64,000 nucleotides of DNA. Source: Hymenobacter armeniacus. GTDB lineage: Bacteria > Bacteroidota > Bacteroidia > Cytophagales > Hymenobacteraceae. The stretch's first letter is position 1. Each line of letters opens with the position of its first letter. The stretch lies in contig NZ_JACXAC010000004.1 of NCBI RefSeq assembly GCF_014699055.1, positions 558,001 to 622,000 on the forward strand. Reading direction: 5' to 3'. Under the pieces are notes generated by a model. It was given only the letters and a program-made list of their open reading frames with translations. It had not been told where the DNA came from and searched no databases. The translations under genes and the position numbers were made by a program. Positions 3,218-27,024 of the stretch are shown one piece after another.

Positions 3218-4033
3218 ATGGCCTTATCTCCCGACTACCCCCGCTTCACCCTTGGCCATGCCCTCACGGCCGAGCAACGAGCCTTTTTTGCTAAATACGG
3301 CTTCCTTCATTTTCGCCCATTCGCGTCGCCCGAGTACGTGCAGCAGCTCCTCAAAGCCACCCAGGAGGTGCAGGCCCGCTGGCTGGCCGAGGGCGTGGAA
3401 AAAGTGAACGGCGTGCCCATCAAATACGGCCACGACGTGGACGGCTCGCGCATTGTGCAGCGCTTTGCCTTTGCCTCGCAGCACCACCCCGTGCTGCACG
3501 AGCTGCTGCAAGACGAGCGTTTCAAAGCCCTGTTTCCCCTGCTGGAAGCCGAAGGCGGCCGCGTGGGCGAAAACGAGAAAGACGGCCTCGTGGTGAACCA
3601 CTACGTGAATGTGGAGGGCTCCGAGTTCAGCCAGATGGGCTGGCACACCGACTCGCTGCGCGACGTATTCTACGGCAAGCGCATCGGGCCCATGCTCAAC
3701 GTGGGCCTGCACCTCGACGGCACCAAGGCCACCAACGGCGGCCTGCGCGTCATTCCCGGCACGCACCGCCAGGGCCTGCACAAGATGCTGTTTCGAAAAA
3801 AATACTACAAAGACGTGTTCTACGACCCCAACGAGGTGGCCGTGGAAACCGAGCCCGGCGACCTCACCGTGCACGACGGGCGCATGTGGCACCGGGTGGC
3901 GCAGTCGCCGCTGGTGGGCGACGCCAGCCGCCGCCGCGTGATGTACGTGCCCATCATCGCGGGCAAGTACCAGCCCAAAAGCCAGGACAGCCCCACGCCG
4001 TTCTACCTGCGGTTTCTGCACTTGGTGAAATAA
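3218..4033 (+). CDS. Phytanoyl-CoA dioxygenase (PhyH) family protein
   Basis: A 271-residue Fe(II)/2-oxoglutarate-dependent oxygenase of the PhyH family. The facial triad is visible: WHTDSLRD gives the HxD pair near residue 145, and DGRMWHRV gives the distal His. GGLRVIPGTHRQGLH between them is the typical jelly-roll segment. There is no signal peptide, so it is cytoplasmic. The substrate cannot be deduced; relatives hydroxylate small lipid-like or amino-acid-like compounds. The ATG at 3218 is fixed by the promoter at 3169-3176. It is followed by a long hairpin and then an SDR gene on the same strand. Confidence 0.85.
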   Translation: MALSPDYPRFTLGHALTAEQRAFFAKYGFLHFRPFASPEYVQQLLKATQEVQARWLAEGVEKVNGVPIKYGHDVDGSRIVQRFAFASQHHPVLHELLQDERFKALFPLLEAEGGRVGENEKDGLVVNHYVNVEGSEFSQMGWHTDSLRDVFYGKRIGPMLNVGLHLDGTKATNGGLRVIPGTHRQGLHKMLFRKKYYKDVFYDPNEVAVETEPGDLTVHDGRMWHRVAQSPLVGDASRRRVMYVPIIAGKYQPKSQDSPTPFYLRFLHLVK

Positions 4034-4126: not shown

Positions 4127-4906
4127 ATGTACGCTCTCGTTACCGGCGCTTCGCGCGGCATTGGCCGGGCCATTTCCCTTCGGCTGGCCCAGCGCGGCTA
4201 CGACCTGCTGCTGGTGGCCCGCTCCGAAGACCAGCTCACTACCCTGGCCCAGGAGGTAGCCCAGAAGCATAAGCGCCAAGCCCGTGTGCTGGCCCTCGAC
4301 CTGGCCGCACCCGGCGCTGCCGACACCGTGGCCAACTGGGCCACCCAGCAAACCGACCAGCTAGCCATCTTGGTGAATAACGCCGGCTACGGCCTCTGGG
4401 GGCGGTTCGAGCAGCTCCGCCTGGCCGAGCAGCAGAACATGCTGCAGTTGAACATGAACCTGCCCGTGGCCCTCACGCACGCCCTGCTGCCCGCGCTGCA
4501 CAAAGCACCCAAGGCGTATATCCTGAACGTGTCGAGCACGGCCGCCTACCAGGCGGTGCCGTCGCTGTCGCTCTATGCGGCCAGCAAGGCGTTTTTGCTC
4601 AGCTTCAGCCGCGGCCTGCGCTACGAGTTAAAGTCGAGCAACGTCTCCGTGACCTGCCTGTGCCCCGGCGCCACCACCACCGCCTTCGCCGACCGCGCCG
4701 GCATGGGCGCCGAGTTGCAAGCCACCGCCAATAAGGTGTCGATGACGCCCGAAGCCGTGGCCGAAGCCGCCGTGAACAGCCTGCTGGCCGGCGAGGCCGA
4801 AATCATTCCCGGCGTGCTCAACAAAGTATCGGCCGGCCTCACCAGCGTAGTACCCAAGGGCATCGTGGAGAAAATAGCGGCGGGGATTTACGAGAAGTAT
4901 CTGTAG
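4127..4906 (+). CDS. Short-chain dehydrogenase/reductase (SDR)
   Basis: A 259-residue classical SDR. The Rossmann motif TGASRGIGRA is at residues 6-15, the NNAGYG stabilising motif near residue 85, then the catalytic Ser in LNVSSTAAY and the YAASK catalytic Tyr/Lys pair near residue 150. It is an NAD(P)-dependent oxidoreductase of the DltE/YqjQ-like type; the substrate is unknown. The protein is full length with no extra domain. Its start lies only 6 bp after a long inverted repeat. Confidence 0.9.
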   Translation: MYALVTGASRGIGRAISLRLAQRGYDLLLVARSEDQLTTLAQEVAQKHKRQARVLALDLAAPGAADTVANWATQQTDQLAILVNNAGYGLWGRFEQLRLAEQQNMLQLNMNLPVALTHALLPALHKAPKAYILNVSSTAAYQAVPSLSLYAASKAFLLSFSRGLRYELKSSNVSVTCLCPGATTTAFADRAGMGAELQATANKVSMTPEAVAEAAVNSLLAGEAEIIPGVLNKVSAGLTSVVPKGIVEKIAAGIYEKYL

Positions 4907-15753: not shown

Positions 15754-16692
15754 TTATGGCGCGGCGGTGGGCGCCGCCTGCACCAGGTTTTTGGCCTCGA
15801 TGAAAATGCGCTGCACCTCGGGGTGCTCTTCCCGAATGGCGTCCTGCAACCGCTCCACGGCCGCCGCTACCTGGATGGAGCTGAGGTTGTCGGCAAAATC
15901 CACGTCCAGCGCCATGATGACGTCGTTCGGGCCCAGGTACATGGTGAGGGGCGAGCGGATTTCGCGTACCTGCGGCTGGGCGCGGGCTATGCGCTCCAGG
16001 TTGGCCAGCGTGTCGGCATCCACGCCGGCGCCCACCAACAGGCCCTTGGTGCGGCCCACCAGAAACACGGCCACCAGCATCAGCAGCAGCCCGATGGCGA
16101 TGGAGGCACCCCCGTCGAAGTACGGATTGTTGAGCAAATGCCCCAAAAACACGCCAATGCCGGCCAGCGCCAGGCCCACCAGCGCGGCCAGGTTTTCCAT
16201 CACCGACGCAAACACGGCCGGGTCGCGGCTGGTGCGCAGCATTTTCACAAAGCCCACGTTGGCGTCCGACTGCGCCAGCAGCGCCTTCACCGACAAGTAA
16301 AACGCAACGCCCTCGAACAGGAAGGACAGGCCCAGCACCACGTAGTTCCAGCCGGCGTCTTCGAGCGGCTCGGGGTGCTGAATGTGCTTGATGCCCTCGT
16401 AGAACGACATGCCGCCGCCGATGGCGAAAATCAGCACGGCCACAATCAGGCCCCAGAAATACAGCTCCTTGCTGTGCCCAAACGGGTGCTCGGCGTCGGG
16501 CGGGCGCTGGCTTTGGGCCGTGCCGTAGAGCAGCAGCCCGCTGTTGCCGGTGTCGACGAGCGAGTGAATGCCCTCCGAGAGCATGGCCGAAGAGCCCGTG
16601 AAATACGCCGCCACAAACTTGCTGATGGCAATGGCGATGTTGGCGGCGATGCCGCCGTAGAGGGAGAGTTTGGAAGCGTTAGCGTCGGCCAT
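15754..16692 (-). CDS. Cation diffusion facilitator (CDF) transporter, copy C
   Basis: A 312-residue divalent-cation/proton antiporter of the CDF family with six membrane helices and a cytoplasmic C-terminal domain. The helix-2 metal pair is His43 and Asp47 in EGIHSLVD. At the helix-5 site it reads VMENLAAL, with Asn167 where copies A and B have Asp in LLEDLAAL. That change could weaken or alter metal binding. It is the third of three tandem paralogues on the minus strand, 75 bp after copy B. The metal is unknown (zinc, iron, manganese and cobalt are possible). Confidence 0.88.
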   Translation of the reverse strand: MADANASKLSLYGGIAANIAIAISKFVAAYFTGSSAMLSEGIHSLVDTGNSGLLLYGTAQSQRPPDAEHPFGHSKELYFWGLIVAVLIFAIGGGMSFYEGIKHIQHPEPLEDAGWNYVVLGLSFLFEGVAFYLSVKALLAQSDANVGFVKMLRTSRDPAVFASVMENLAALVGLALAGIGVFLGHLLNNPYFDGGASIAIGLLLMLVAVFLVGRTKGLLVGAGVDADTLANLERIARAQPQVREIRSPLTMYLGPNDVIMALDVDFADNLSSIQVAAAVERLQDAIREEHPEVQRIFIEAKNLVQAAPTAAP

Positions 16693-16767
16693 GCGGCGGG
16701 GAGTCTGGTTGAATAGGGGGGCAAAGAACGCCCGATGAGCAAGACGAGCTGTTGGGGGTGAATGTGC

Positions 16768-17697
16768 CTAGGCGGTCTGCTCGCGGCTTGACAGCGACTT
16801 GGCCTCCACAAAAATGCGTTTCATTTCCGGGTATTGGGCCCGAATAACGTCCTGCAGCGCGTCGATGGCGTGTTCAATTTCCTCGGACGTGAGGTGGTGG
16901 GCAAACTCCACGTCAAGGGCCAGAATGACATCGGCCGGGCCGAGGTAGGAGGTGAGGGGCGGGCCCACCTGGTCGATGTTGGGCTGGGCGCGCACCAAAG
17001 CCTCGATGGCATCCAGGGTTTCGTCGTCGACGCCGGTGCCCACCAGCAGGCGCTTGGTTTTGTAAATGAGGAACAAGGCCACGCACACCAGCAGCAGGCC
17101 AATGGCAATGGAAGCCGCGCCGTCGAGGTAGGGATTGTTGAGCAAATGCCCGAAATACACGCCGGCCAGCGCAATGAGCAGGCCCAGCAGGGCGGCCAGG
17201 TCTTCGAGCAAAATGGCAAACACCGATGGGTCTTTGCTGCGCCGTAGCGTGTCCCAGAAGCCGGCGTCGCCCCGGTCGGCATTGAAGGCCTTGAACGCCA
17301 GGAAGCAGGAAATGCCCTCAAATAGCAGCGACAAGCCCAGCACCCAATAGTTCCAGGTGGGGTCGGAGAGGGGGGCGGGGTTCTTGAGGTGCTCGATGCC
17401 TTCGTAGAACGACATGCCGCCGCCCACCGAAAACACCAGAATGGCCACAATCAGGGCCCAGAAATACAGCTCCTTGCTGCGGCCGAAGGGATGCCGTTTG
17501 TCGGCCGGCTTCTCGGCCTGGCGCACGCCGTGCAGAATGAGCCCGCCGTTGCCGCTATCCACGAGCGAGTGAATGCCTTCCGACAGCATGGCCGAAGAGC
17601 CGGTGAAATACGCCGCCACAAACTTGCTGGCGGCAATGGCGACGTTGGCGGCAATGGCCCCGTAAATGGCCAGCTTGGAAGAACCCGGTGAACTCAT
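16768..17697 (-). CDS. Cation diffusion facilitator (CDF) transporter, copy B
   Basis: A 309-residue CDF antiporter. The helix-2 pair is His43/Asp47 (EGIHSLVD) and the helix-5 segment is LLEDLAALLG (Glu165, Asp166), as in SLC30A9-like members. The C-terminal cytoplasmic domain contains TSYLGPADVILALDVEF. It sits between copy A (61 bp upstream) and copy C (75 bp downstream) and is probably co-transcribed with both. Its sequence is closely similar to both neighbours throughout, which indicates tandem duplication. Confidence 0.9.
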   Translation of the reverse strand: MSSPGSSKLAIYGAIAANVAIAASKFVAAYFTGSSAMLSEGIHSLVDSGNGGLILHGVRQAEKPADKRHPFGRSKELYFWALIVAILVFSVGGGMSFYEGIEHLKNPAPLSDPTWNYWVLGLSLLFEGISCFLAFKAFNADRGDAGFWDTLRRSKDPSVFAILLEDLAALLGLLIALAGVYFGHLLNNPYLDGAASIAIGLLLVCVALFLIYKTKRLLVGTGVDDETLDAIEALVRAQPNIDQVGPPLTSYLGPADVILALDVEFAHHLTSEEIEHAIDALQDVIRAQYPEMKRIFVEAKSLSSREQTA

Positions 17698-17732
17698 GGC
17701 GAGGCTTACGCGGTGAAATGGGTTGGCGTTGG

Positions 17733-17765
17733 GCGGTAGCGTGAACTTTCAGTTCGCGCTACCGC
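17733..17765. repeat. Palindromic repeat overlapping CDF copy A stop codon
   Basis: GCGGTAGCGTGAACT and AGTTCGCGCTACCGC (one mismatch) around a TTC loop. The TAG stop of CDF copy A (17759-17761) lies in the right arm. A related hairpin is at 18746-18779. Confidence 0.75.
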
Positions 17766-18679
17766 GCGTGCCCGGTGAGCGAGGAAGCCTCAATGAAAAT
17801 CTTGCTAAACTCGGGATACTGTGCTTTGATGCTGGTTTGCAGGCGCTCCACGGCCTGCTCCACCTCCACGGCCGTCAGGTGGTCGTGAAAGGCAATGTCG
17901 AGTGCCAGAATGGCATCGGCCGGGCCGAGGTACATGGTGAGGGGGGCGCGGAGCTGGCCCACGGCCGCATCTTGCTGGGCCAGGGCTTCGAGGCGGCCCA
18001 GCACGTCGGGGTTGGCGCCTTCGCCCACCAGCAGGCCCTTGGCTTCCGTGAGCATGAACACGGCCATGCCCACCAGCAGCGCCCCGATGGTCATGGATGC
18101 CGCGCCGTCGAAGTACAGATTATTCAGCAAGTGCCCGAAGAAAATGCCAGCCAGCGCAATCATCAAGCCCACGAGCGCGGCCAGGTCTTCGAGCAAAATG
18201 GCAAACACCGCCGGGTCGCGGCTGGTGCGCAGCGCCTGCCAGAAGCCCTGCTCGCCCTGCGTCTTTTTGAACTCGCGGTAGGCCAGCGTGCAGGCCACGC
18301 CCTCAAACACGATGGCCAGCCCCAGCACCCAGTAGTTCCAGGTGGGGTCGGTGAGCGGGGCGGGGTTGCGGAGGTACTGATAACCTTTATAAAGCGACAT
18401 GCCGCCGCCTACGGCAAATATCAAAACGGCCACAATCACCGTCCAGAAGTAGATTTCCTTGCTGTGGCCGAAGGGGTGGCGCGCGTCGGCGGGCCGGGCG
18501 CTGCGGTTCATGCCCAGCAGGATGAGCAGGCCGTTGCCGCTGTCCACGAGCGAGTGGATGCCTTCCGACATCATGGCCGCGCTGCCGGTGAAGCCCGCCG
18601 CCACAAACTTGGAAACGGCAATGGCCAAGTTGGCCCCAATGGCGCCGTACACCACGATTTTGGAAGAGCTGCCCGCCAT
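17759..18679 (-). CDS. Cation diffusion facilitator (CDF) transporter, copy A
   Basis: A 306-residue CDF antiporter, first of the three tandem copies in transcription order. The helix-2 pair is His42/Asp46 and the helix-5 segment LLEDLAALVG (Glu164, Asp165) matches copy B. The C-terminal domain carries TMYLGPADAILALDIAFH. The start ATG at 18679 is preceded by an AT-rich leader and a palindromic hairpin in the divergent gap with the permease gene. The stop codon lies in a second copy of the same hairpin family. Confidence 0.9.
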   Translation of the reverse strand: MAGSSSKIVVYGAIGANLAIAVSKFVAAGFTGSAAMMSEGIHSLVDSGNGLLILLGMNRSARPADARHPFGHSKEIYFWTVIVAVLIFAVGGGMSLYKGYQYLRNPAPLTDPTWNYWVLGLAIVFEGVACTLAYREFKKTQGEQGFWQALRTSRDPAVFAILLEDLAALVGLMIALAGIFFGHLLNNLYFDGAASMTIGALLVGMAVFMLTEAKGLLVGEGANPDVLGRLEALAQQDAAVGQLRAPLTMYLGPADAILALDIAFHDHLTAVEVEQAVERLQTSIKAQYPEFSKIFIEASSLTGHAR

Positions 18680-18784: not shown

Positions 18785-20188
18785 ATGTCCGCACCCACTT
18801 TGCAGCGCCGCCTCGGCTTGGTCCAGGCCACGGCGCTAAATATGATAGACATGGTGGGCATTGGCCCCTTTGTCACCCTGCCGCTCGTGATGGGCTTCAT
18901 GGGCCCGAACTTTCTGCTGGCCTGGTTAGTAGGCGCCGCCCTGGCCTCCGTCGATGGCCTCATCTGGAGCGAGCTGGGTGCCGCCTACCCCGAAGCCGGC
19001 GGCAGCTACCGCTTCCTCAAGCTGGCCTACGGCGAGCAGAAGTGGGGCCGCTACATGTCGTTTCTCTACGTGTGGCAAACGCTCATTCAGTCGCCGCTGG
19101 TGCTGGCGTCCGGCGCCATCGGCTTCGCCCAATATTTCGGCTACCTCGTGCCGATGACCGAATGGTGGCAGCCCAAAGCCGTGGCCGGTGGCGTGGTGCT
19201 GCTGCTCATCGTGCTGCTCTACCGCCGCATCGAGGACATTGGCAAGCTGGGCGTGGCGCTGTGGGTGGGCGTGCTCGGGCTCATGGGCTGGCTGATTTTC
19301 GGCGGCGTCACGCACCCCAACCACCACGTGGCCATTTTTCCGGAAGGCGGCTTTCCGGCCTTGCCGGGCCTGCTTATTTCCGTCGCCATGGGCCAGGCGG
19401 CCGTCAAAACCATCTATTCCTACCTCGGCTACTACAACGTGTGCCACCTCGGCGCCGAAATCAAAGGTCCGGAAAAGGTCATCCCGCGCAGCATTTTCCT
19501 GAGCATCCTGGGCATTGCGGCGCTATACCTGTTGCTGAACTGGAGCGTGGGTACCGTTATTCCGTGGCAGGAAGTGCAGGGTTGGCAGGCCAGCGCCGGC
19601 GACAAGTCGCAGTTCATCGTGAGTGTGTTTGTGGAGCGGCTCTACGGGCCGGCGGCTGCCACCTTTGCCACGGCGCTGGTGCTGCTGGTGGCATTTGCCT
19701 CGCTGTTTGCGGTGCTGCTGGGCTACTCGCGCATCCCCTACGCGGCGGCGGCCGACGGCGAGTTCCTGCCCGTGTTCGGCAAACTGCACCCCACCAAAAA
19801 CTTCCCCTACGTCTCGCTGCTGCTGCTGGGCGGCGTGGGCTTCGTGTTCAGCCTGCTGTTCCGGCTGGGCGAGGTGATTTCGGCCATTCTGGCCATGCGC
19901 ATTCTGGTGCAGTTTGTGGGCCAGGCGGTGGGGCTGGTGCTGTTGCGGCGACGGCGCGGCACGGCCGCGCTGCCCTTCAAGATGCCGCTGTATCCGTTGC
20001 CGGTTATTCTGGCCATCATCGTGTGGCTGTTTGTGTTCGTGGGCATCGCGCCGGCTGAGGTGACGTGGGGCGGGATGCATTTCAAGCTCTATTTCCAGTT
20101 CGCCGCGCTGGGCATGATGGCGCTAGGTACCGTAGCTTTCTTGCTCTGGAGCCGCAGCTTGAAGCGGTGGCCTTTTCAACCGCAGTAG
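18785..20188 (+). CDS. APC family amino acid permease
   Basis: A 467-residue integral membrane transporter with about 12 hydrophobic helices. The start LGLVQATALNMIDMVGIGPF is the conserved helix-1 glycine-rich substrate site of the APC superfamily, followed by WSELGAAYPEAGGSY (helix 2-3 signature). It probably carries an amino acid or amine by proton or sodium symport or by exchange; the substrate is not deducible. TACTTTCG, a one-mismatch -7 element, lies in the repeat directly upstream. Terminated by the hairpin at 20252. Confidence 0.88.
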   Translation: MSAPTLQRRLGLVQATALNMIDMVGIGPFVTLPLVMGFMGPNFLLAWLVGAALASVDGLIWSELGAAYPEAGGSYRFLKLAYGEQKWGRYMSFLYVWQTLIQSPLVLASGAIGFAQYFGYLVPMTEWWQPKAVAGGVVLLLIVLLYRRIEDIGKLGVALWVGVLGLMGWLIFGGVTHPNHHVAIFPEGGFPALPGLLISVAMGQAAVKTIYSYLGYYNVCHLGAEIKGPEKVIPRSIFLSILGIAALYLLLNWSVGTVIPWQEVQGWQASAGDKSQFIVSVFVERLYGPAAATFATALVLLVAFASLFAVLLGYSRIPYAAAADGEFLPVFGKLHPTKNFPYVSLLLLGGVGFVFSLLFRLGEVISAILAMRILVQFVGQAVGLVLLRRRRGTAALPFKMPLYPLPVILAIIVWLFVFVGIAPAEVTWGGMHFKLYFQFAALGMMALGTVAFLLWSRSLKRWPFQPQ

Positions 20189-20251
20189 AGCTGCAGACTG
20201 GGGCAGCAAGTACGTTTTGAGCCTTGGTGCTCGAAGCTCTACAAAATGCGG

Positions 20252-20285
20252 AAAGGACGATGCCGGGCCCGGCATCGTCCTTTTT
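20252..20285 (+). terminator. Rho-independent terminator of the permease gene
   Basis: A 16-bp perfect palindrome centred on CCGGGCCCGG (stem AAAGGACGATGCCGGG) followed by a T run, 64 bp after the permease stop. It may also end the convergent FG-GAP gene. Confidence 0.88.
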
Positions 20286-20317
20286 CGTGCTTGCGCCAGC
20301 GCCCAGCCGCATAGCTA

Positions 20318-23300
20318 TTATTCCTTCACGATGCGCCGAACGATGGTTTCGCCGGTGCCCGTGCGCAGTTCCAGCAGATAGATGCCCGTGGGCAGGCCAC
20401 TCAGGTTCAACTGTCCGGCTGCTGTCAGGGGTTGCACAGGCCGGACTTGTCGGCCTAGGGCATCGCGCAGAGTGGCAGAGCGCAAGTCGCTTCCGGCCGG
20501 GGCCGTTATTGTGAGGCGGTCGTGCACCGGCACCGGATGTAGTTGCAGCCCCGCCAGCGCGGCGTTGCGCGCGGCCAACACCACTGTAAACGTGCCGGTG
20601 CTAACGGCTTGGCCCTGCGGGGTCGTCACCACCAGTTGGCCCGTGGTGGCGCCCACCGGCACGGTGGCAATAATCTGCGTGGCCGAAACCACTGTGAAAA
20701 CCGCCGCAACGCCATTAAACGTGACCGCTGTGGCGCCCGCTAGCGACGTTCCGGTAATGACCACCGTGGTGCCGGGGGCGGCATTGGCAGGTGTAAAGCT
20801 GATGATGCTTGGCAAAGCCCCGTTGAAAACCACCGAAACGGCAGGTACGGCGCCGCCGCTCACAAAATCCAAGTCGCCGTCGCCGTCCACGTCGCCCAGG
20901 GCAATGCCGCCACACGCCAGGGCCAGCCCGGTGCTGTTGCCAAAACGCCCCTGGCCATCGTTGCGGAAAACGGTCAGCCCATTCGAGGAATTCCGGGCCG
21001 CCAGTAGGTCGAGGTCGCCGTCGGCGTCCACGTCGCCCACAGCAATGCTGTTGTAGGAACCACCCGCCGTCAGCACGGTGGCCGCAGCGGGGGGGAAAGT
21101 ACCATTGCCGGCGTTCAGCGCTACCGTAATGGGAGCCGGGAAACCGGCGGACGGACTGTCGCCGGTAGCAATCAGGTCCAGGTCGCCATCGCCGTCCACG
21201 TCCTTGGTTTCCAATTGGACGGGGCCATCGGCAATGGCCACGGTGCTGAAAGCGACGAACTGGCCGGTGCCATTGTTATTCCAGATGCTGACGCGCGAGT
21301 TACCGTACGCGGCCACCACTAGGTCGAGGTCACCGTCGTTGTCCATGTCGCTGAGCTTCGCGTCATACAGTGTGGTCCACATCTGCAGGCTCGCGGCTAT
21401 CTGCAGCGCCGTACTCCCCGAGAAGTTGCCCTGCCCATCGTTGGTGCGCACGTACGCGTAGCCGTTGGTGCTCACGGCCACTAGGTCCAGGTCGCCATCG
21501 GCGTCGAGGTCGCCGGTTGTCAGCGCAGCGGTAACGCCCGCAAACGGCACTTGCGCCGTGCCCGAAAAAACGCCGCTGCCGTTGTTCAGCCGTACGTAAG
21601 CCTTGCTGCCGCCCACCGTTTCCAACGCCAGCAGGTCCAGGTCGCCGTCGCCATCCACATCGGCCAGTTCCAGGGAGAGCGGTACAATGGCCAGCGCCAA
21701 GTCCCGGTTGACGGTGAAGGCGCCGCTGCCGTTGTTCAGCCGGACGTGAACGGTGCCCGTGGTTCCGTTCGACGACACGGCCAGGAGGTCGAGGTCGCCG
21801 TCGTTGTCCAGGTCGGCCAGGGCCGGACTGCCGGGCGCTATGCCCGTGGCCACGGGCGTGCCCACGGCAAACACGCCCCGGCCCGTGCCGCTAGCCGCCG
21901 CCGTGAAGCTGTAGACCTGAGGCAAAAACTGGGTTGCGCCAGTATCCTGCAGGGTTTCTGGCAGCGTCACGCTCACCGTTTCGCCGGGGGCGAACGGCCG
22001 GGCCGGGGCCAGCGAAAGCGTGTTCGACCCGCCGCCCGTGCGTGTGCCCGGCAGCCGCCCCCCGCTTTGGCTCCCAAACACGGCCAGCCCGAGTGCCGAA
22101 GCCGCCGTGATGGGCTGCGAGAATTGCGCCGCAACCGTGCTGGTTACGGGCGCTGCCACGGCATTGCGGGCCGGGGTGCGCCCGGTCACAGTAATCTGCG
22201 TCAGCACCGTATAGTTGGTGGCCGAGGTGGCGGTGCCCGCGGCATTTGTCACGCTCACCGGCCCGGTGGTGGCGCCCGCGGGCACCGTCACGGTAATTTG
22301 GGTGGCCGAGTTAATCACAAAACCCGGCGCGGCCGTGCCGTTGAACTGTACGCCGGTAACGCCAATGAAGTCGTTGCCTGTGAGCACCACCGTGGCCCCC
22401 ACCAGCCCGCTGGCCGGCGCAAAGGCAACCACGGCCGGCAAGGCCACCCGTTCGTTCCAGCGCAAATCAATTCTGGGCGCGTTGCTTGTAGCCGTCGGCA
22501 TAGCCAAATCAAGGTCGCCGTCGCCATCCAGGTCGGCCAGCGCGCCGCCCTGGGGGTAGGAGCCAGTAGGCACCGCCTGCGCGCCCGAAAAGGTGCCATT
22601 TCCGCTATTGAGCCGCACATTCACCAAGCCGTTGCTGTTTTGGTCGGTGCTGGTGATAGTCAGGTCCAGGTCGCCGTCAGCGTCGAGGTCACCCAGCAAC
22701 ACGCTGGCCCGGTAACCAATGGTAAGCGGTGCACCGGCGGTGAAAATGCCATTGCCGTTGTTGAATAGCACTACCGTGCCACCAAATGGAGGCACGTTGC
22801 CACCGAGTGGAAGCACCGCATCCAAGTCGCCGTCGCCGTCTAGGTCGCCCAGGGCCATTCGTTCCTGCGGAATGCCGCCGGCCGGGCCCGGGGTGATGAT
22901 GCCGGGCGCCAGGCGTTGGAAGATGCCGGCGCCATTGTTTAGCTGCACACTGAGCGTGCCGTTGGGCAGCAGGGCCACCACATCCAGGTCGCCGTCGCCG
23001 TCCACATCTCCTAGTTCGAGGTCTAGGGGAGCACGGCCCACAAACAGATTGTAAACCCGGGAAAAAGCGCCGGTGCCGTCATTCAGCCGCACCCGAGCGC
23101 TGTCGCCGCTGATGACCGGAAAGACCACGTCCTGGTCGCCGTCAGCATCCAGGTCGCCCACGGCCAATCGGTGCATGCTGCCGGTCATAGCGTAGGTCGA
23201 GGAAATGGCAAAAGCGCCACTGCCGTTGTTCCGAAATACGGTGGCCGTGCTGTTTGCCGTCGAGTTGGAAGTGCTTATGCTCACCAGGTCTAGGTCATCG

Positions 23301-25540
23301 TCGTTGTCCACGTCCACAAGAGCCACATCGTAGGGAATCAATGGCAGCGCGGTGCTTTGCCCGGCCACAAACCCTCCAATGCCGTTGTTGAGTTGAATTT
23401 TGATGTTGTTGCCAAGGCTGTTGGCAATGACCAAATCCAGGTCGCCGTCTTTGTCTACATCGCCGGCCACCACCTGCGCCGACTCGCTGCTGAGGGCAAT
23501 GGCCGAGCTGCCCGTGAACGTGCCCCGGCCCGGTCCCGTGGCGGCGGCCGTGAATTGGTACACTTGCCCCAGCACGTGCGCTCCGGCCGCACTTTGCAGG
23601 CTGGCCGGCACGCTCACGCTCACGGCCTCGCCGGGCGCAAAGCCCTGCGTTGGGGCAAAGGAAAGCGCGGCTGTGCCGCCGCCCGTCAGCACGCCGGGGC
23701 GTTTGCCCCGGCGCTGGGCGCCGTGCACCACCAAGCCCCCCGCCGAAACGCTGCTGATGGCCTGCGTAAAGCCAATGGCCACCGGCGCGGTTGGCGACAC
23801 GGCCACCGCGTGGCGGGCCGGAGCTACGCTGGTAATGGCCAGGGGCATCGTCACGTCAAAGGACGCCGCCGTGGTGCCCGCGGGCGTCATCACCGTCAGC
23901 GGGCCGGAAGTGGCACCCGACGGTATGGTGACGGTGATGCGCATGGGCGAATTCACGACAAATCCCGCCAGCGGCGTGCCGTTGAGTGCCACGCGGGTCG
24001 CACCCGTGAAGTTGCGGCCCGCAATGTCCAGCACTGTGCCCGCCGGCCCCGCCGGCGGGGCCAGGTAGGTGATGGCCGGCCCCGCGGCCAGCTCATTGGG
24101 GTACACCCGCACCGTGGCGTTATTGCTGTTGATGGTGAGCGCCAGCAAGTCGAGGTCCAGGTCGCCGTCCAGGTCGCCCGTCACTACCTCTTGTGGCATG
24201 ATACCGTTTACAATGGGCGCCACCGGTATGGAGGCGGTGAAGTTTCCGGCCCCGTCGTTCAGCCGGCCGCCCGCCGTAGTCATGAGGTCAAGGTCGCCGT
24301 CGGCATCCAGGTCCGCCAGTGCCAGGCCGCGGCCCGGGAGTTGGGTCTCAATGACGCCACCGAAGGTGCCAAGGCCGTTGTTGAGACGCAGGGTCACAGT
24401 TGCATTGTTGTAGTTGTTCACCAGCAGGTCTAGGTCGCCGTCGTTGTCTACGTCGCCCAACTGGACCCGCTCCGGGGCCGCGCCGGCCGCCAGGGCCGGG
24501 CCATTGTTGAAGGTTCCGTTGCCGTTGTTCAGGCAAATGCTGACGCTGCCGTCTGTTTGCCCGCCAGCCGAGCAGCCCATCACCACATCTAGGTCCCCGT
24601 CGTTGTCCACGTCGCCCACCGCCAAGCCGGCAGCCTGGTACCGGGTGGGAAAAATACGGTCAGTGCCCACGAAGGTGCCCGCGCCGTTATTAAAGCGCAG
24701 GTCGGCGTACCCCATAGCATTCAGGGCCAGCAGGTCGGCGTCGCCGTCGGCGTCCACATCGGCCAGCACCAATTGCCGCGTCCTGGCCGAAAGGCTAACG
24801 CTGCCCGCCGGCGCGAAAGCCCCTGCCCCGTTATTAAGAAGCACGTCTGCTGACCAGGCGTTAGGACCGGCGAGCAAGTCCAAATCGCCGTCGTTGTCTA
24901 CATCGGCCAAGGCCAGAACCGACGCCAGCACCGGAATGTCGGGCATGCTGACGAAAGCGCCCGCGCCCGAGTTGAAGCGAACAGCAACGTCCGTAAACTG
25001 GCTGCCTACCACAAAGTCGAGGTCGCCATCGTTGTCGAGGTCGCCCACGGCTATAGCGGTGGCTGCATTGGGAAACGTTAGGTCGGTGCCTGCCCCAAAA
25101 TTGGCTTGCCCCGTGCCGCCCGCTGCGGCCCTAAACTGATACACCTGCTTCGTGACCGCGCTGCCGCTGGTGTTCTGCATGGTGGCTGGCACGGTCACGC
25201 TCACCACCTCGCCCGGCGCAAAATCCCGGGCCGGGTCCAGCGTCAGCGTATTTGTGCCCCCGCCCGTTACCACGCCCGCCACTTGGCCCCGTTGGCTGCC
25301 GACAAGGCGCAGATTAGGCGCCGTACTGGCCGAAATGGGCTGCGAAAAACCAAGTGAAACGTTGCCTGACCGGCTGGCGGCCAGTGCGTTTCGGGCCGGC
25401 TGCCGCGTGAGTAGGCTGGGCGCCTGCGCGCGACTGGGCACGGCCGTCAGCCACAGCAGCCCCAACGCCAAGCCGCCACGCATCACGCGCCAAAGCGCTT
25501 TTTTTTCTGATAAAAGACCAACAAGAGTAGAAAGGAGCAT
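20318..25540 (-). CDS. Giant T9SS-exported FG-GAP/VCBS repeat protein (three 7-repeat blocks)
   Basis: A 1740-residue surface or secreted protein. After a signal peptide (ending SRAQA) the same module occurs three times: an Ig-like Big_5-type domain (RNALAAS..., ending VYQFRAA), seven FG-GAP/VCBS repeats, and an IPT/TIG domain (for example APPAGPAGTVLDIAGRNFTG). I count seven Ca-binding DxDxDGDxD-type loops in each block, 21 in all, which would build three seven-bladed beta-propellers. The last ~75 residues are a T9SS sorting domain (LQLHPVPVHDRLTITAP to ETIVRRIVKE). The ATG at 25540 precedes the signal peptide; longer frames upstream lack one. Likely an adhesin or a calcium-dependent binding protein. 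Confidence 0.92.
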   Translation of the reverse strand: MLLSTLVGLLSEKKALWRVMRGGLALGLLWLTAVPSRAQAPSLLTRQPARNALAASRSGNVSLGFSQPISASTAPNLRLVGSQRGQVAGVVTGGGTNTLTLDPARDFAPGEVVSVTVPATMQNTSGSAVTKQVYQFRAAAGGTGQANFGAGTDLTFPNAATAIAVGDLDNDGDLDFVVGSQFTDVAVRFNSGAGAFVSMPDIPVLASVLALADVDNDGDLDLLAGPNAWSADVLLNNGAGAFAPAGSVSLSARTRQLVLADVDADGDADLLALNAMGYADLRFNNGAGTFVGTDRIFPTRYQAAGLAVGDVDNDGDLDVVMGCSAGGQTDGSVSICLNNGNGTFNNGPALAAGAAPERVQLGDVDNDGDLDLLVNNYNNATVTLRLNNGLGTFGGVIETQLPGRGLALADLDADGDLDLMTTAGGRLNDGAGNFTASIPVAPIVNGIMPQEVVTGDLDGDLDLDLLALTINSNNATVRVYPNELAAGPAITYLAPPAGPAGTVLDIAGRNFTGATRVALNGTPLAGFVVNSPMRITVTIPSGATSGPLTVMTPAGTTAASFDVTMPLAITSVAPARHAVAVSPTAPVAIGFTQAISSVSAGGLVVHGAQRRGKRPGVLTGGGTAALSFAPTQGFAPGEAVSVSVPASLQSAAGAHVLGQVYQFTAAATGPGRGTFTGSSAIALSSESAQVVAGDVDKDGDLDLVIANSLGNNIKIQLNNGIGGFVAGQSTALPLIPYDVALVDVDNDDDLDLVSISTSNSTANSTATVFRNNGSGAFAISSTYAMTGSMHRLAVGDLDADGDQDVVFPVISGDSARVRLNDGTGAFSRVYNLFVGRAPLDLELGDVDGDGDLDVVALLPNGTLSVQLNNGAGIFQRLAPGIITPGPAGGIPQERMALGDLDGDGDLDAVLPLGGNVPPFGGTVVLFNNGNGIFTAGAPLTIGYRASVLLGDLDADGDLDLTITSTDQNSNGLVNVRLNSGNGTFSGAQAVPTGSYPQGGALADLDGDGDLDLAMPTATSNAPRIDLRWNERVALPAVVAFAPASGLVGATVVLTGNDFIGVTGVQFNGTAAPGFVINSATQITVTVPAGATTGPVSVTNAAGTATSATNYTVLTQITVTGRTPARNAVAAPVTSTVAAQFSQPITAASALGLAVFGSQSGGRLPGTRTGGGSNTLSLAPARPFAPGETVSVTLPETLQDTGATQFLPQVYSFTAAASGTGRGVFAVGTPVATGIAPGSPALADLDNDGDLDLLAVSSNGTTGTVHVRLNNGSGAFTVNRDLALAIVPLSLELADVDGDGDLDLLALETVGGSKAYVRLNNGSGVFSGTAQVPFAGVTAALTTGDLDADGDLDLVAVSTNGYAYVRTNDGQGNFSGSTALQIAASLQMWTTLYDAKLSDMDNDGDLDLVVAAYGNSRVSIWNNNGTGQFVAFSTVAIADGPVQLETKDVDGDGDLDLIATGDSPSAGFPAPITVALNAGNGTFPPAAATVLTAGGSYNSIAVGDVDADGDLDLLAARNSSNGLTVFRNDGQGRFGNSTGLALACGGIALGDVDGDGDLDFVSGGAVPAVSVVFNGALPSIISFTPANAAPGTTVVITGTSLAGATAVTFNGVAAVFTVVSATQIIATVPVGATTGQLVVTTPQGQAVSTGTFTVVLAARNAALAGLQLHPVPVHDRLTITAPAGSDLRSATLRDALGRQVRPVQPLTAAGQLNLSGLPTGIYLLELRTGTGETIVRRIVKE

Positions 25541-25703
25541 AGTAACTGAGTAAGAAGCAATACAGGTCGGCGCTGGCACTTCCAGGAAGTGATGAGCAAA
25601 GTAAGCATTTCGCTCAGCGCTGGGCTGATAACAAAGGCAAGGCCTGGGAAATTGGGCTAGAATAAGTTGAGGCGTTACCTGCCGGCCACCGCCCCGAAGC
25701 GCA

Positions 25704-25766
25704 AAAACGCGGCCCCAGCGGCCACCCAACCGTTTTCAGGTTCGAGTGACCACTGGGGCCGCGTTT
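25704..25766 (-). terminator. Possible terminator hairpin after glycosyltransferase gene
   Basis: AAACGCGGCCCCAG (25704-25717) pairs with CTGGGGCCGCGTTT (25753-25766) across a loop of about 35 nt, with a short T run on the minus strand side. It lies just downstream of the stop at 25788. Confidence 0.55.
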
Positions 25767-25787
25767 GTGGGTCCGAATGCCGGGAAG

Positions 25788-26876: not shown

Positions 26877-26902
26877 TCAGGTGCTAAAAAGGATAAAAAT
26901 TG

Positions 26903-26994
26903 AACGTCATGCAGAGCGGAGCGAAGCATCTCGCGTGCAAGAGTAAATGATTACTACCACACGCGAGATGCTTCGCTCCGCTCTGCATGACGTT
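26903..26994. repeat. Perfect inverted repeat with 35-bp arms
   Basis: The left arm (26903-26937) begins AACGTCATGCAGAGCGGAGC and ends CATCTCGCGTG. The right arm (26960-26994) is its exact reverse complement; the spacer is 22 bp. It lies between the epimerase stop and the glycosyltransferase start. No transposase or other coding content is present, so it resembles a MITE/REP-like palindromic element. Confidence 0.92.
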
Positions 26995-27024
26995 CTCTCA
27001 AACGATACTTAAAAATGCATCAAC

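Follow-up and report, generated by a model that had tools for sequence, protein, structure and literature searches.

The closest described systems are the prokaryotic members of the VCBS/FG-GAP_3 superfamily (PF13517, Pereira and Lupas 2021), whose core, according to the accessible part of PMC8023676, consists of a signal sequence, a DxDxDG motif in loop AB and several propellers per chain accompanied by Ig-like domains. In its available portion, Chouhan et al. 2011 (PMC3192720) describes bacterial seven-bladed propellers in which every blade bears the calcium motif, in some cases with two sets in tandem. PVL-type fungal lectins (Psathyrella, Agrocybe) are also seven-bladed with DxDxDG loops, as far as the accessible sections of PMC8023676 go. 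Since multi-propeller and tandem seven-bladed FG-GAP proteins are thus already in print (PMC8023676 and PMC3192720, in their accessible parts), the gene analyzed here clearly belongs to a known kind. In the open-access literature, no paper was found joining FG-GAP repeats with T9SS or with Hymenobacter, although the print literature may still hold one.

The gene is located in a window of 64,000 nucleotides from Hymenobacter armeniacus (contig NZ_JACXAC010000004.1, positions 558,001 to 622,000), where it occupies positions 20318-25540 of the minus strand and encodes 1740 residues plus the stop. A sequence-only reading had assigned it this place and length, with seven DxDxDGDxD loops in each of three blocks, a Big_5 domain before and a TIG domain after each block, and a T9SS sorting domain at the C-terminus, and all of these features were recovered. 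There are two candidate starts, the ATG at 25540 and an in-frame ATG at 25483, just ahead of a signal-peptide-like stretch recognized by eye in the translation (N-terminal residues 1-40, 25421-25540). The pattern search of the protein found 21 acidic loops, distributed as 7+7+7, with 46-56 residues between neighboring loops of one block. Aspartate occupies loop positions 1, 3, 5 and 9 in 21/21 loops, and glycine occupies position 6 in 19 of them. In Pfam, FG-GAP_3 (PF13517) matches 21 stretches above its curated threshold (392.4 bits against a cut-off of 26.9) and PF01839 matches 17 (148.7 against 22.1), while the NCBI repeat domain NF058597 is above its cut-off in three stretches. At E up to 1, seven Pfam families are listed for the protein, with Big_5 and TIG found three times each.

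These domains follow one another as Big_5, propeller and TIG, three times on the minus strand. Module 1 comprises a Big_5 domain (25133-25426; 39.7 bits), a propeller at residues 153-480 (24101-25084) with its seven loops at 167-456, and a TIG-type domain at residues 488-564 (23849-24079), found by Pfam and also the best stretch of NF058597 (488-564, 49 bits against 30). In module 2, the Big_5 domain (23549-23848; 34.5 bits) precedes a propeller at residues 671-1031 (22448-23530; loops at 694-1003) and a Pfam TIG domain around residues 1033-1116 (22193-22444). The only match, a weak one, of the sequence search against solved structures (limit 0.01) was to a TIG protein, at residues 1033-1116. 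Module 3 has the best scoring Big_5 domain (21902-22201; 48.4 bits), a propeller at residues 1223-1574 (20819-21874; loops at 1243-1550) and a Pfam TIG domain at residues 1577-1652 (20585-20812). The C-terminal T9SS sorting domain (residues 1668-1737, 20330-20539) is a bare pass for Por_Secre_tail (PF18962, 27.9 bits against 27) and a clearer one for TIGR04183 (29.8 against 23). PHROGs gave one weak match, to a family of unknown function, and Rfam found nothing at the gene, its single tRNA lying elsewhere in the window.

The protein shares with the VCBS/FG-GAP_3 superfamily a putative signal sequence, the DxDxDG motif in loop AB and the chain of several propellers with Ig-like domains, and differs from it in its counted composition, with sevens that number one to six per chain across the genus sample, and in having Big_5 before, TIG after and a T9SS tail. 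With the proteins of PMC3192720, as presented in the accessible part of that source, it has in common a calcium motif in every one of the seven blades and the tandem sets of seven. However, there are three sets here and five in the paralog L031, and the protein carries predicted export signals, whereas a cytoplasmic role is supposed for those proteins. In the integrin alpha head (propeller and thigh), the propeller fold is the same and an Ig-like domain follows the ring in both, but the seven families that Pfam lists at E up to 1 include no other integrin alpha domain. The literal FG and GAP residues of integrin repeats do not recur (5 FG pairs and a single GAP tripeptide in the whole protein).

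Structure prediction strongly supports three closed seven-bladed propellers in a row, the arrangement proposed by the sequence-only reading, which had named the prediction of each block as a check. AlphaFold modeled modules 1 and 2 jointly (alignment of 11 sequences; mean pLDDT 80.4, pTM 0.51) and module 3 together with the C-terminal end (alignment of 30; mean pLDDT 88.5, pTM 0.81). At pTM 0.51 the mutual placement of modules 1 and 2 is not reliable. In all three blocks, a predicted strand A directly precedes each acidic loop, and the strand lists show 27 strands from the first A through the last C, plus one strand before the first A, giving 28, or seven blades of four strands. In PDB alignments of the predicted models, propeller 3 matches integrin alphaIIb with Z 34.5 (rmsd 2.6 over 332 residues), propeller 2 matches integrin alpha chains with Z of about 31 (rmsd 2.6-2.8 over about 333 residues) and propeller 1 is represented by one row with Z 31.1 (rmsd 6.8 over 385 residues). 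Ring closure is read from the strand order and these Z-scores.

Integrin alpha chains top the PDB alignment, but aldos-2-ulose dehydratase and LGI1 (Z 31.2 and 30.9, respectively) are level with them for the two-module model, so the likeness is to seven-bladed propellers generally, integrins included. By Foldseek alone, BBSome subunits rank first, but with an rmsd over 20, and fungal lectins, galactose oxidase, KICSTOR subunits, CRTAC1 and others appear further down. All these searches give single-domain matches, and a common fold shows no function.

A turn motif, G.G.[FY], located between strands C and D, offers a second view of how the ring closes. It is present in 18/18 gaps between loops of the protein and in none of the three blocks after the seventh loop, which indicates that a block stops after strand C. 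In the Hymenobacter set it was found in 798 of 996 gaps, and after the seventh loop in only 1 of 166 blocks; the corresponding values for loci outside this set are 143/270 and 0/45. Ahead of the first loop, it occurs in two of three blocks here (block 1 has A in place of the second G), in 74/166 Hymenobacter blocks and in 6/45 of the others, being clear in about half of the blocks or fewer. The missing strand D of the last blade is most likely supplied from ahead of the first blade. In the available part of PMC3192720, the seventh blade of bacterial integrin-type propellers is likewise predicted to be completed by an N-terminal strand.

The near-strict counting in sevens, with up to six rings per chain, is the most interesting side of this family. 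We surveyed 81 genomes of the genus, including that of H. armeniacus, of which 47 gave matches at the 1e-50 level; six candidates were scored per genome. The 40 regions chosen from these matches, together with the window, gave 50 complete ORFs with 147 blocks, several of them from very near relatives and hence not independent. Seven blades were counted in 141/147 blocks, and 44/50 ORFs contain only blocks of seven: one block in 5 ORFs, two in 14, three in 6, four in 11, five in 7 and six in 1. Named Hymenobacter loci beyond this sample (L109 excluded) have seven blades in 14/14 blocks from 7 complete ORFs. With 141 of 147 blocks in agreement, seven per block exceeds chance, and growth in the genus is nearly always by blocks of seven. 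Chains of one to six complete propellers in one genus form a natural series for asking how propellers multiply.

Among the six exceptional ORFs, three are apparent pieces of one broken gene, L091, and one, L074, has another type of FG-GAP block, with five loops. The remaining two, with three blades (L099) and six (L106), look like true non-seven blocks. The sequence-only reading had expected homologues to carry repeats in multiples of seven; this stands for 44/50 ORFs and fails for at least these two. In L099 (ORF at 4884, plus strand) and L106 (ORF at 3570, plus strand), the blocks look intact and have the usual block surroundings. The L091 locus (G010:C1:3648000-3661000) contains a multi-module gene broken across reading frames, by assembly errors or decay. 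Frameshifts within family genes, suggested by adjacent matches whose open frames differ in length (e.g. in G073 and G074), were considered and rejected: the loops of each gene proved to be in one frame, L091 being the sole exception, so no programmed frameshift is claimed.

Published propeller work, in the accessible part of PMC9218822, stresses single-blade growth and a continuous range of blade numbers among highly repetitive propellers, and VCBS propellers with 3, 4, 6 and 9 blades are described there in cyanobacterial chitinases. Blades could likewise have been gained and lost one by one here, the dominance of seven being a sampling accident, and the blocks of three and six in the genus sample would agree with it. 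Outside Hymenobacter, all blocks are multiples of seven in only 35/75 complete ORFs, although the blade model used there was trained on this FG-GAP family and likely misses divergent blades, which makes these counts weak either way. The commonest totals per ORF are 7 (22 ORFs), 14 (12), 6 (10) and 11 (8). Against such blade-by-blade change are the 141/147 blocks of the genus sample and the 14/14 blocks of the seven further ORFs; near relatives weaken the first count but cannot account for it, and we regard the explanation as scarcely credible. Unbroken arrays of 14 blades (L117, L123, L125, L135, L137, L139, L147, L161, L163 and L175) and one of 21 (L120) were also observed in other genera, some from other phyla, as though propellers had been joined in twos or threes without spacers.

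The genome of H. armeniacus itself contains further members. The paralog L031 (G000:C6:498088-506529, minus strand) encodes 2814 residues with five blocks of seven (35 loops), on the same contig as the gene and about 72 kb apart, so that one genome has two long members. In its translation, the third block appears to be followed by an additional TIG-like stretch and the fourth by none. L032 (583 residues) has one Big_5 domain and one block of seven, and L033 and L034 are two more single blocks of seven. The rule is broken, by model and by pattern, in the FG-GAP-type L035 (8-9 loops) and L036 (3-5 loops).

The three modules of the 1740-residue protein share 42-46% protein identity and 54-56% DNA identity. 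The sequence-only reading had proposed DNA identity between modules to date their duplication; the values indicate that it is old, too old for a date to be within reach at these identities. Duplication of whole modules, also proposed there, is supported by the repeated domain order and by the likeness of blades at the same position across modules, which shuffled orders reach in 63 of 2000 cases in this protein, in 21 of 2000 in the five-module paralog and in 1 of 2000 when both are taken together. However, modules 1 and 3 score higher with a blade shift of six (35.3) than with no shift (29.1), and in the five-module paralog the likeness of blades within a module (17.8) exceeds that at the same position (15.5).

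Had the three modules arisen by recent duplication inside this gene, their single domain order and the more similar same-position blades (the 63/2000 above) would be expected, and one clade for the three escapes formal rejection (p-AU 0.0615) while costing 23.65 log units. Yet the modules are no closer to one another than to the paralog modules Q1, Q2 and R (42-45%), and their four-fold sites are 42-50% identical, compared with about 33% expected from third-base composition. Module 2 joins third modules of other species in a starred set of seven (99/98; 94/67 for the propeller alone), and propeller 1 groups with second modules (96/96; 0.908 in a FastTree of 170 propellers). A recent origin inside the gene is therefore very improbable, and the array is probably older than this gene. 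The placements of module 2 with third modules and of propeller 1 with second modules deserve moderate trust; taken as a whole module, module 1 is found beside first modules (90/92), and module 3 has no resolved placement in the trees. A positional mosaic, in which the propellers would correspond to modules 2-4 and the Big_5 domains to modules 1-3 of five-module relatives, had been suggested by register sums and was dropped. The Big_5 tree is unresolved, and neither grouping of P1, with first (p-AU 0.411) or with second modules (0.363), is rejected in it; on the propeller side, grouping P1 with first modules (p-AU 0.176) or P3 with fourth modules (0.287) likewise escapes rejection.

At the locus level, the gene could be compared with one relative, G038, the only one close enough. 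At 1e-80, the neighboring glycosyltransferase was found in 6/81 genomes, and besides H. armeniacus only G038 exceeds 42% identity. The flanks are collinear, with DNA identities of 91.7% for the permease, 89.4% from the glycosyltransferase to GNAT and 93.0% for HemB, against 79-88% further from the gene. Between the permease and the glycosyltransferase, the 5607 bp of the window that contain the gene (20177-25783) are replaced by 123 bp in G038 (L190 15393-15515). These 123 bp contain an inverted repeat with exact arms of 20 bases, and its words recur elsewhere in the 20-kb locus of G038 and not in the window. Across the whole of G038, the strongest match to the protein (3.2e-43, 37% identity) has two internal stop codons, and 44 weaker matches down to 1e-5 indicate other proteins with such domains there. 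The absence could result either from a gain in H. armeniacus or from a loss in G038. Near the gene, three cation-efflux genes (PF01545; 306-312 residues) lie in a row in the window (15754-18679, minus strand), where G038 has two (L190 17045-19050). An intergenic stretch of about 93 bp (window 26902-26996) recurs at 78-81% identity in L190 4429-4524 and 17997-18089.

Selection was estimated as pN/pS from seven pairs of related proteins of the genus, some sharing a member and none including the 1740-residue protein. The family is under strong purifying selection in these pairs, with point values, without error bars and for regions set by distance rules, of 0.21 overall, 0.06 in the calcium loop, 0.34 in the BC loop, 0.30 in the DA loop and 0.18-0.26 elsewhere. 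In integrins, the ligand face is the one that carries the BC and DA loops. The higher values of these loops are still well below 1, and mere relaxed constraint may also fit them. Of the type IX machinery, SprA was found in this genome (2229 bits against 200). The predicted export signals, SprA and the pattern of selection on the loops favor a secreted, calcium-stiffened, multivalent and surface-associated binder with several propellers, a reading we consider rather probable, with a putative ligand and location.

The propellers might be those of a lectin, with sugar pockets like fungal PVL lectins or tachylectin, the array binding polysaccharide with avidity. In Foldseek, an Agrocybe lectin takes the third and fifth ranks and PVL appears from rank 18 onward, at 19-23% identity in the fold alignment, and VCBS-like propellers are typically tied to carbohydrate recognition, and also to protein-protein interaction, in the accessible part of PMC9218822. 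On the other hand, the GW motif of loop DA', which helps form the sugar pocket of PVL and tachylectin (PMC8023676, available sections), is absent, with 0 GW and 6 W in 1740 residues, so pockets of the PVL kind are unsupported; the several rings per chain are a further difference from these lectins. We find the lectin proposal unlikely. Slightly less doubtful is a passive surface spacer or structural protein (layer, stalk or matrix scaffold) without specific ligand, the propellers serving as stiff beads. The Ig-like repeats, the 21 calcium loops, the lack of an effector-type domain in the Pfam list (seven families at E up to 1) and the range of one to six modules would suit it. But the BC and DA loops are the most different between relatives, which fits a binding face, though relaxed constraint too, and the gene is missing in the near relative G038, which would be unusual for an essential layer.

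For the multivalent surface binder, we suggest that the putative signal peptide and the type IX sorting domain would carry the protein out of the cell. Every module is predicted to fold independently as a closed seven-bladed ring with seven calcium loops, between Ig-like Big_5 and TIG spacers. The plentiful extracellular calcium would lock the blades, making the three stiff rings a multivalent array, and the freer-evolving face with the BC and DA loops would be the likely binding face, for a glycan or a protein. From the counts, the family appears to grow and shrink mainly by whole propeller modules, presumably because a lone blade neither completes a ring nor can leave one, and the whole gene may be present or absent between near relatives, as seen in one of them. 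A bolder and unlikely extension is that the closed propeller, and not the blade, is copied and lost in the genus, so that its proteins count in rings, from one to six. The calcium face would be frozen and the opposite one freer to change, and the outcome would be a rapidly turning-over set of multivalent surface binders like a variable receptor family. A single module, of about 540 residues, is a simple construct for probing what bacterial integrin-like propellers bind.

Six neighboring genes gave no tblastn match at 1e-8 in 50 homologous loci (L031, L068-L116), while the 1740-residue protein itself, as a control, matched 50/50. These homologues thus sit elsewhere. Among 11 plasmid records matching the protein, 10 are from Hymenobacter, all with less than 60% identity. 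They are mostly annotated as FG-GAP-like or Ig-like proteins, indicating that relatives are plasmid-borne too.
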